In this document: positions 9,671 through 13,276 of the stretch, one piece after another
Numbering within the stretch: position 1 is the first letter of the stretch
How the letters are laid out: each line of letters opens with the position of its first letter
Assembly (NCBI GenBank): GCA_026993805.1
Contig: JALWSA010000039.1
Coordinates: 1-54,329, forward strand
DNA length: 54,329 nucleotides
Source of the DNA: Thermotogaceae bacterium
GTDB lineage: Bacteria; Thermotogota; Thermotogae; Thermotogales; Thermotogaceae
Direction: 5' to 3'
Program-made: the position numbers and the translations under genes
The notes under the pieces: generated by a model
Databases searched by the model: none
The model's input: only the letters and a program-made list of their open reading frames with translations
Told to the model about the DNA's origin: nothing

Positions 9671-12600
9671 TTGTCAGTTCTGACCAAATACATATTCAAA
9701 AGATCCATAGGTCCATTTTTAATCGGTCTTGGAGGATTTATAGTATTCGTAAGTGTGGAAGTCCTATACCAACTCTCTTACATCATCGTTAGAAACCGTG
9801 TCGGTTTCGATAAGCTCCTTCTGCTGATCTATTACTATCTTCCATACTTCATATCCATGGGAATACCTGTAGGAGTTCTTCTCGCGATTTTCTGGACGGT
9901 ATCCGACCTGTCTGAAAAAAGAGAACTAATGGCATTTCAGGTACACGGAATATCCTTGAAGTACCTTATAGTACCTTTTTTGCTGTTCGCGGGAATTCTA
10001 AGCCTATTTTCGTATTTTCTCAACGACTCCATAGTTCCAAAAAGTCAGGTCAAAATCGACGAGGTGATGGCACGCTATATTTACAAACGCCCACATGTGG
10101 AATCCTATCTCGTGGAAGATGCGGTCGTTAAACACGATAACAAATTCATATATGTACAGCTCTATAACAAAAAGAAAAACAAGATGAAAAATATCCTGAT
10201 AATCGAATACGAACATGGGATTAAGAAGGTAACAACTGCAAACGAAGCCATAAGAGAGGACAAATACTGGTACCTTATCGACGGACGCTTTTATCTTGTA
10301 GATGAAAAGGGCTTCATGAAATTCAACTCGAAATTTCAAAAGATGCGGCTCAGGATGGACAGCGATTTTGGAAGAATGATATCCGCATCATCTCCCAAAA
10401 AAATGAGTCATAAAGAACTCGTAGAAACTATCAAAGCCATAGAAGACAAGAAAAGATCGGCGAGATGGGTTGTTGAGCTCCAGACGAGGTATTCAACATC
10501 TCTCTCTCCAGTGATAATAGTGCTCGTAGGTCTTTCTCTTTCTCTCCTTTTTAACCTCACAAGCAAATCTTGGGGAGTGATAATAACTTTCATAATAGTC
10601 GTTCTATATCAGGGTTCAGGCGCGTGGCTAAGCGCCATGGGAAAAGAGTACATTATACCCCCTGTTTTATCGGCATGGATACCGAACATTTTCTTTGGCA
10701 TATTCGGACTCGTTATATATCTCTTTATAGATACAAAATTTGCCCAAACAGTGAGAGAGATTTTCTGGAGATCGTTCATCATAGTCATATTGTTAATTCC
10801 ATCCATAGCTTTAACTAAGGACTACACGATAACAGCCAGTTCGGTGATTCTGAAAAACGACTTGGTAATCTTCACAGGAAACGTATCCATATCCGAAAAT
10901 GGTACTAATGTGATAACTGCAGCGAGCTGCTCCTATTTCCTGGACAGGGATTACATGATGCTTTACAACGCCCGCTTCATCTCAAAAAGAGAAAACGTTC
11001 CCTTTTTCAAAGCTATTTCCTTCAACGATGCAACACAAGAAGCTTCTATAATGAATGCAACGATAACTCTAAACGACGCGACTGTGACTATTGAATCTGC
11101 AAACTTCATTGTCCACTCAAAGAAAAGCAAGCTCTATTTGATCGAAAGTGGGCAAATTAGCATAAAAAACCATGATGGAGACATCATAAAATTGAAAGGA
11201 CCCCTGACTATTTTGAAAGACTCTTCAGAACTAAAGATAATCGACAGCAACGGGCAAATTAAAATCACATCCAAGAACGGTAACACTATAAAAGGTACTT
11301 ATGCAAAATACGGAAAAAGCACATCTTCTGGCTTCAAAGGGTATATACTGACAAAAATAAAAGATGAGGAAAAGAAACTATACATTTCAGGTCTCCACCT
11401 TACTATAAAAGATTCAAATTTATACACTGTTAAAGGGGGTTACTTAACCACATGCGACATTGAAGATCCACACTACTACATAGCTTTTGAGAGAGCCGAG
11501 GTAGAATCAGAAAAATACCTGGTAGCTCGAAACGTCGTTTTCTTCGTATTAGACACACCTATCTTTTATTTTCCGTTTTTCTATCAATCTCTTGGAAAAA
11601 ACCCCCTTTTTGAATTCTCAATAAAGTTCTTCCAGGATTACACAGGAAGCTCATACACCTTTAATGCTCCATACTCGAAAAATGGCATAGCCTCATTCAC
11701 CATTAAAACAGGGCAGGAAAATACCGAATATTCTCTGAATTTAGAAGACTCGTTTGACGACACGAAATTTTCCTTAAACAAGACCCTTGGTGATTCAGAA
11801 ACGTTCTCGCTAAAACTCTCCACAAAACTCCCTTTCAAAACCTCTATCTCTATAAATCAATCTGAGGAAACCGAACTTTACAATCTAACATCCTCTTACG
11901 ACCTCGGAGTATTTTCATCCAAATTGCAGATTTATAGAAACTATTCAGATGGCAAAGTCTTTTGGATGCTGCCAAGCATTTACATCAAAAGCAAAAGAAA
12001 TTTCTCAATTTTCGATACTTCACTCAAGCTCTCATATTTCACACACAAACAAACCCTTTATTACGATATAGAAAACGGTGGCCTTTTCCAGAATATGGGA
12101 AATAGTCAAGCAGAAGGCAAACTCTCCGTCTCATTATATAAAACACTTTTAAAAGACATTGGTTCCAAATTATCGTTATCTAACGCCTTCTCTTATTATT
12201 TACCCCCACCAAAAGAAGCAGAAGAAAACCAATGGGATAATCACATAACAGGAAAGTTTTATATCTTTTCTTCTTCAATGAACACCGAATTGATCAACTT
12301 ACAGACTTCCGAAATAATCGAGTTCTCGAGATCAGATAACAGTGAAGATACTTGGAGAGAAAATTTTTCTTTTAATCACAGCTCGGAACTCAACTTCACT
12401 CCTTTTAAGCCTTTCACCACAAAACTAACGTATACAAGAAAGAGCTCTTTTTACAGAGATTATTCACAAGCCGATTTCCAGAAATCCGGTGTGGACCATC
12501 ACCTCGATCTAAAGGCATCCTTGACGCTTCCCTTGCTCTTTCTAACCTCAACGCTCGATCTTCAAACCTCATACGACTTCCTAAATGAAGAAAAACCATG

Positions 12601-13276
12601 GGAGTACCCTCTCATAAGCCTTTCTGAAAAAACACAATTTGAAGAGTGGGAACTTGGTGCAACGTTGAGCACAAGGTACTTATACGATGAACAGACCCTC
12701 TTCAAAGAGGTTACAATATCCATGTCGCAGATATATAAACATGGTTCTTTCAAGAACAATATCAAGTTTGTCTATGAACTCGAGGAAGAAAAACCTGTAG
12801 ATGAAATCGTGGACACGTTTTCTACCAAGTATCTTCCCTTGTTTGGATGGCAGTTCAACATATCTGGACTTGGGAAGATAAAGCTTCGAACGGAAAACCC
12901 AAAACTGTATTATTTTAATGTAAAAGGTCACTTTGTAAGAGAAAAAGTTAAAAACGTTTTAAACATAACTTACAACTCCCCTGTTGACTCCGATGAATCA
13001 TATTTCACAATGGGGTTTCTATCGAAAGGAGGGGATCCGAGTTTTTCCTTAAACATAAGTTTGAAATCTGAGGGCAATATCATAACAATACCAGATTTCT
13101 CTTTGAGCCTTACAAAAAAATTGCACAAATGGATCCTGACAACTTCGATGTCTTTCTCACTGATAGATAGACTCCGCTTTTCTAAATTCATTCTCGCGTT
13201 CAAATTGGGTGATTTCCCTGACAAATATTTCCAGTACGACGCCATTAACGACTCATTCGATCTGGGTGTGATGTGA
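9671..13276 (+). CDS. Fusion: LptF/LptG-type permease + OstA periplasmic domain + LptD-like outer-membrane barrel
   Basis: A 1201-residue uninterrupted frame. Residues 1-355 are an LptF/LptG (YjgP/YjgQ) permease: helices near 13-35, 48-75 and 97-118, a periplasmic jellyroll about 120-265, then helices near 276-297, 302-323 and 330-353. A basic linker and a seventh helix (about 366-381, SFIIVILLIPSIALT) would return the chain to the periplasm. Residues 384-600 are OstA-like beta repeats (TASSVILKNDLVIFTGNVSI). CDIEDPHYYIAFERAEV and FYFPFFYQSLGKNP match the LptD N-domain/barrel junction. The last 500 residues alternate like amphipathic beta strands. In Proteobacteria these parts are separate proteins moving lipopolysaccharide. 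The start is TTG after a G-rich site; the gene follows nadK by 15 bases. The transported lipid is unknown. Confidence 0.85.
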   Translation: MSVLTKYIFKRSIGPFLIGLGGFIVFVSVEVLYQLSYIIVRNRVGFDKLLLLIYYYLPYFISMGIPVGVLLAIFWTVSDLSEKRELMAFQVHGISLKYLIVPFLLFAGILSLFSYFLNDSIVPKSQVKIDEVMARYIYKRPHVESYLVEDAVVKHDNKFIYVQLYNKKKNKMKNILIIEYEHGIKKVTTANEAIREDKYWYLIDGRFYLVDEKGFMKFNSKFQKMRLRMDSDFGRMISASSPKKMSHKELVETIKAIEDKKRSARWVVELQTRYSTSLSPVIIVLVGLSLSLLFNLTSKSWGVIITFIIVVLYQGSGAWLSAMGKEYIIPPVLSAWIPNIFFGIFGLVIYLFIDTKFAQTVREIFWRSFIIVILLIPSIALTKDYTITASSVILKNDLVIFTGNVSISENGTNVITAASCSYFLDRDYMMLYNARFISKRENVPFFKAISFNDATQEASIMNATITLNDATVTIESANFIVHSKKSKLYLIESGQISIKNHDGDIIKLKGPLTILKDSSELKIIDSNGQIKITSKNGNTIKGTYAKYGKSTSSGFKGYILTKIKDEEKKLYISGLHLTIKDSNLYTVKGGYLTTCDIEDPHYYIAFERAEVESEKYLVARNVVFFVLDTPIFYFPFFYQSLGKNPLFEFSIKFFQDYTGSSYTFNAPYSKNGIASFTIKTGQENTEYSLNLEDSFDDTKFSLNKTLGDSETFSLKLSTKLPFKTSISINQSEETELYNLTSSYDLGVFSSKLQIYRNYSDGKVFWMLPSIYIKSKRNFSIFDTSLKLSYFTHKQTLYYDIENGGLFQNMGNSQAEGKLSVSLYKTLLKDIGSKLSLSNAFSYYLPPPKEAEENQWDNHITGKFYIFSSSMNTELINLQTSEIIEFSRSDNSEDTWRENFSFNHSSELNFTPFKPFTTKLTYTRKSSFYRDYSQADFQKSGVDHHLDLKASLTLPLLFLTSTLDLQTSYDFLNEEKPWEYPLISLSEKTQFEEWELGATLSTRYLYDEQTLFKEVTISMSQIYKHGSFKNNIKFVYELEEEKPVDEIVDTFSTKYLPLFGWQFNISGLGKIKLRTENPKLYYFNVKGHFVREKVKNVLNITYNSPVDSDESYFTMGFLSKGGDPSFSLNISLKSEGNIITIPDFSLSLTKKLHKWILTTSMSFSLIDRLRFSKFILAFKLGDFPDKYFQYDAINDSFDLGVM

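Follow-up and report, generated by a model that had tools for sequence, protein, structure and literature searches.

How a permease of the inner membrane and a barrel of the outer membrane come to be encoded by one gene, and whether the product works as one chain or as two, is the question raised by a locus in the window, by which we mean the whole stretch of 54,329 nucleotides that was analysed (contig JALWSA010000039.1 of the Thermotogaceae assembly GCA_026993805.1). Between the genes for NAD kinase and DnaB lies a single plus-strand frame (9671-13276) whose 1201 codons run without an internal stop, just as the original prediction had read them. It opens with a TTG codon at 9671, with a G-rich Shine-Dalgarno-like stretch about 8 bases upstream, and closes with a stop codon at 13274-13276. 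The encoded protein consists, in order, of a complete LptF/G permease, a short hydrophobic helix (helix 7) and an LptD-type protein made up of an OstA domain, a TTC...FYFPFFY motif and a beta-barrel (Table 1). The existence of the fusion in one frame is certain. From the sequence of the joint we consider it probable that the gene product is a polyprotein which signal peptidase I would cut into LptF/G and LptD, the two serving the export of a lipid other than LPS.

Table 1. Features of the LptF/G-LptD fusion gene, in positions of the window.
Feature	Position	Strand	Basis or remark
Whole LptF/G-LptD fusion, 1201 aa, TTG start	9671..13276	+	
LptF/G permease domain, residues 6-350, six TM helices and periplasmic beta domain	9686..10720	+	PF03739, genome search, full-chain model, fold search
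Conserved post-TM6 stretch with basic end (IDTKFAQTVREIFWR), putative n-region of internal signal peptide	10727..10771	+	Alignment
Helix 7, putative h-region of internal signal peptide (SFIIVILLIPSIALT), residues 368-382	10772..10816	+	Candidate cut after A380 (PSIA↓LT) or T382 (ALT↓KD)
LptD N-terminal (OstA) domain, residues 383-592	10817..11446	+	Relatives' profile against LptA/LptD structures; PF03968 in 18/33 relatives; copy in the window weak
LptD signature TTC....PHY...TPIFYFPFFYQSL, residues 593-641	11447..11593	+	C595, Y602, P630 and P635 invariant in the alignment of relatives; weak PRK04423 match
LptD-type C-terminal beta-barrel, residues 642-1201	11594..13273	+	AlphaFold models, fold searches; no PF04453 match

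The family assignments of the two parts are firm. The Pfam model LptF_LptG (PF03739) matches residues 6-350 with E=1.8e-71 and 241.5 bits (cut-off 27.9), and an AlphaFold model of the full chain, a check that the original prediction had proposed, shows six TM helices with a beta-jellyroll domain between TM3 and TM4, in keeping with the full six-helix permease claimed there. The best solved match of this model is LptG (6mit_G, TM-score 0.67 on target); its first third matches LptG and the remainder matches LptD. The topology expected earlier, in which LptF/G ends in the cytoplasm and a seventh helix puts the rest of the chain in the periplasm, is likewise supported. A genome search found one LptF/G copy in the window's genome; the distinct LptF and LptG partners of the Proteobacterial form are absent from it and from nearly all relatives, two separate copies being present only in the Thermotogota genome G005.

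The C-terminal part has no Pfam match by itself, and the window protein taken alone has no Pfam LptD match; the earlier view that it resembles OstA and LptD is upheld by the profile of its relatives, the TTC motif and structural comparison. A profile built from 33 relatives matches LptA (2.9e-6) and the solved LptD 7omm (9.1e-6), the latter match spanning the OstA domain into the TTC...PxFYxP motif, and PF03968 (OstA/LptD_N), which Pfam misses in the window sequence, is recovered in relatives. The NCBIfam LptD model PRK04423 matches weakly in the window (E=0.025) and at 3.5e-9 in relatives, some of which are matched by NCBIfam LptD models at values down to 5.5e-11. For a separate AlphaFold model of this part (mean pLDDT 79.9, pTM 0.52), LptD takes each of the first 15 places among solved structures, with E-values of 3.9e-14 to 3.4e-10 and TM-scores of only 0.27-0.40, the low scores indicating that closure of the barrel is poorly modelled. 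A search for separate LptD with the Pfam barrel model PF04453 gave no Thermotogota genome above the cut-off; since the fold search returns LptD as best matches, this reflects a limit of the Pfam model rather than of the fold. Along with the TTC cysteine, most Thermotogota have another that lies 46-56 residues before the C-terminus and is absent in the window; such a pair would suit a disulphide like that of an exported LptD. The fusions L034, L035, L036, L037 and L038 are about 1430-1470 aa long, the stretch that follows the TTC motif being longer by about 300 residues, which would correspond to an enlarged barrel or to insertion of a domain.

The fusion is widespread. Our survey covered two phyla, Thermotogota (103 genomes) and Bipolaricaulota; contigs scanned with a single protein as query gave no match, and the same scan with an alignment as query found the Bipolaricaulota fusions. 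An LptF/G match is present in 100 of the 103 Thermotogota genomes and lies in 89 of these within an open frame of at least 900 aa, so that the search across the phylum suggested by the original prediction gave the same fusion in nearly all genomes; in Bipolaricaulota such a frame is present in 76 of the 91 genomes that have an LptF/G match. Among the remaining 11 Thermotogota are one true split (G005), three genomes with an internal stop or frameshift, and seven of which most or all have the frame cut by a contig end (checked in G097 and G001). The shorter Bipolaricaulota frames include contig ends, gaps or an apparent frameshift in the several that were checked, and true splits in G155 and G156. 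The LptD signature was found in all 66 long frames aligned, one of which (L135) ends early at its contig end. An assembly error or a chance frame is rejected as the source of the fusion, since about 165 genomes from the two phyla share the long frame, single-contig genomes included. The copy in Thermotoga maritima is presumably TM1735, going by gene order. The three interrupted Thermotogota fusions, L081:2599-6048 (G044), L051:5404-8696 (G093) and one on G041:C9 (seen only as three LptF/G matches), represent sequencing errors or real breaks; a few genes from the frameshifted copy in G093 lies an apparent SLH-domain OmpA-like (toga spacer) protein (L051:12145-13374).

What becomes of the chain depends on helix 7, which directly follows the basic stretch VREIFWR and lies within a few residues of where it had been placed (366-381, after a basic linker). 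Its mean pairwise identity in the alignment is 0.20, compared with 0.34-0.51 for TM1-6, and such fast divergence points to the behaviour of a signal peptide and not of a packed helix. With the first OstA strand as anchor, the position three residues ahead of the strand was occupied by a small residue (A/G/S/P) in the signal peptides of 15/15 LptA-like proteins that are encoded separately, and in 31/38 fusions; F or Y preceded that residue in 12/15 and 21/38, respectively. The joints of Bipolaricaulota carry A-x-A-type sites (AWA↓QE, GFA↓QE, AHA↓QD, VCA↓DE, SFA↓AP), and a possible cleavage site with A or G at -1, judged by eye, is present in 28 of 28 sequences from that phylum. The window's best candidate sites, A380↓L381 and T382↓K383, are among the weaker joints. 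By a generic -3/-1 score, helix 7 could not be told apart from the ends of ordinary TM helices, and a classifier trained on the N-termini of the fetched loci was useless, its positive set being contaminated with cytoplasmic proteins; hence the argument for a signal peptide rests on position, divergence and the genomes in which the gene is split. A long Pro/Thr-rich linker follows helix 7 in the fusion of G006 (L069:3407-7201), unlike in other Thermotogota.

The split genomes are informative as to both the joint and its history. In G005, LptF and LptG both stop short of helix 7, and LptD is a separate frame of 849 aa with the N-terminus MVIKKFKKNQIFHILILIILLIPLMAFTQDEN, the signal peptide of which (ILLIPLMAFTQD) resembles ILLIPSIALTKD of the window. 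This sole truly split Thermotogota genome also encodes an enlarged LptA-like protein, a 603-aa exported protein with several OstA-like repeats (L077:6294-8105). In G155 and G156 the LptFG and LptD frames are adjacent and overlap, and LptD has its own hydrophobic N-terminus; the gene order is OstA-LptB-LptFG-LptD at L188:118-4999 (G155) and LptB-LptFG-LptD, again with LptFG and LptD overlapping, at L189:1791-6682. Such overlapping frames are likely the state that preceded fusion, which would have arisen by loss of a stop. A tree built from the LptF/G part places the G005 pair within the fused Thermotogota next to G006 (99/97), which makes its split a secondary event, accompanied by the presence of two permease copies, and places G155 and G156 outside the fused groups. 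The root of this tree is unsure because of long branches and a distant outgroup; a single origin of the fusion before Thermotogota and Bipolaricaulota parted appears likely. Helix 7 itself is most likely the retained signal peptide of LptD, now internal.

The genes that a divided product would need are at hand. LptB (TIGR04406 above cut-off) is encoded in 98, signal peptidase I in 96 and Omp85/BamA in 88 of the 103 Thermotogota genomes, that of the window included in each case, and separate LptA/LptC-like genes were found in most genomes with PF03968 and PF06835. The search for LptB and for LptA or LptC that had been proposed thus yielded, in the window's own genome, LptB and a 341-aa LptA-like frame with a signal peptide, its Pfam match being weak (E=0.008). 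The signal peptidase I of this genome (G000:C28:3427-4293) gives a two-piece match with an insertion of about 80 residues, as in many Thermotogota. Among the lipid A genes the search covered LpxC, the key gene for ordinary LPS, which was found in 0/103 Thermotogota and 0/8 Bipolaricaulota; this agrees with the expectation that Thermotogota make no classical lipid A and indicates that the cargo is probably not LPS.

We propose that the LptF/G part would insert in the inner membrane and that helix 7 would then re-engage the Sec machinery and send the rest of the chain to the periplasm, signal peptidase I cutting right after the helix. The released LptD would be folded into the outer membrane by BamA, and LptF/G, the sole copy in the genome, would homodimerise and join the separately encoded LptB. 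The stretch between helix 7 and the TTC motif measures 119-226 residues across the fusions (210 in the window) and folds as LptD's own N-terminal domain, a spacer of the MlaD type, long enough to span the periplasm, being absent; the bridge across the periplasm must hence come from other proteins, for which the separate LptA/LptC-like proteins are the candidates. The cargo would probably be an amphipathic glycolipid or some lipid other than LPS; a glycolipid has been proposed for Borrelia and, by extension, for Thermotoga (PMC10353723). The original prediction had favoured gate, bridge and barrel as one covalent bridge, and this is not supported, given that the OstA part is LptD's own N-domain, that LptA/LptC-like proteins are separate and that helix 7 is signal-peptide-like. 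Its own alternative, an internal signal sequence with a cut after it, is favoured by the joint and by the split genomes, the cut being predicted.

A chain that stays whole, anchored in the inner membrane by seven helices and with its LptD domain in the outer membrane where the two membranes come close, is unlikely. It would account for a fusion that has stayed in frame across two phyla, in about 165 genomes, and is rarely split; if the products are always cut apart, only stoichiometry, coupled synthesis or a difficulty in splitting the gene again would explain this near-universal retention, which tells against the polyprotein. A homodimeric LptFG would then carry two barrels, and the Veillonella MlaD (PMC10665443) is a precedent for a single chain linking inner and outer membranes. 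The shortness of the periplasmic part, the signal-peptide features of the joint, the free LptD of the split genomes and the flexible, low-confidence joint in the full-chain model (residues 373-383) speak against it, however, as do the long periplasmic coiled-coil spacers of Thermotoga, which would imply a wide gap between the membranes (PMC9388160). A never-cut, covalent pump-to-barrel machine by which both phyla would export a non-LPS lipid at membrane contact points, with two barrels per homodimeric pump, is improbable.

Partial processing, in which some chains are cut and others stay whole to give free LptD as well as a tethered form, would fit the varying quality of the joint, with some Thermotogota, the window included, lacking a strong -1/-3 pair. 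Cleavage by signal peptidase I is usually rapid and complete, however, and we regard this reading as very improbable. That the fusion is an assembly error, or its C-terminal part an unrelated outer-membrane barrel, has a negligible chance of being right: Pfam finds no LptD in the window protein alone and PF04453 stays below its cut-off in all Thermotogota genomes, but the same frame occurs in single-contig genomes, the profile matches LptD, all the best structural matches are LptD and the TTC motif is invariant.

LptD occurs throughout Thermotogota, and also in Bipolaricaulota, concealed as the last part of the LptF/G gene. The fusion provides an ancient shared marker of envelope biogenesis for two phyla whose outer membrane is detached at the cell poles (PMC10665443), and it offers an LPS-free Lpt machine that can be put to the test. 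An outer-membrane gene survey of 2022 reported Thermotogae to be without nearly all the genes studied except bamA, and lptD to be confined to typical LPS diderms (PMC8871954); surveys may have missed LptD owing to the below-cut-off PF04453 scores of every Thermotogota genome. We found no published description of an LptF/G-LptD fusion in the open-access literature that was searched.

Several known systems are comparable in part. Borrelia burgdorferi likewise has an Lpt machine in a diderm without LPS, with a glycolipid as proposed cargo, but its Lpt genes are separate, and a fusion goes unmentioned in the passages of PMC10353723 that were consulted; the paper refers to Putker 2015 for the Lpt orthologues of Thermotoga maritima. 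The Lpt cluster of diderm Firmicutes shares a single LptF/G homologue, LptB and OstA proteins with the present system, whereas no LptD and no fusion were found there (PMC5007114). The transenvelope MlaD of Veillonella parvula also combines an inner-membrane segment with an outer-membrane barrel in one chain; it differs in being an MCE protein for lipid trafficking, in its long helical spacer and in its unrelated domains, and no internal signal-peptide joint is described in the sections of PMC10665443 available.

The Proteobacterial Lpt system (LptB2FG-C-A-DE) has the same LptF/G permease, LptB, OstA-fold bridge proteins and LptD with TTC...PxFYxP motif and barrel, whereas here LptF/G and LptD share one frame, a single LptF/G is expected to form a homodimer, LpxC is absent, so that the cargo is probably not LPS, and the Pfam LptD barrel model is unmatched. 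A parallel for the joint is the FbcH cytochrome b/c1 precursor of Bradyrhizobium, in which an internal signal peptide, cut by signal peptidase, joins a polytopic membrane protein to an exported one; the internal signal peptide between two domains is the shared feature, deduced in our case from sequence alone. FbcH belongs to a respiratory complex and both of its products remain at the inner membrane, none going to the outer membrane, whereas the fusion described here may give a bacterial polyprotein with a role in two membranes.
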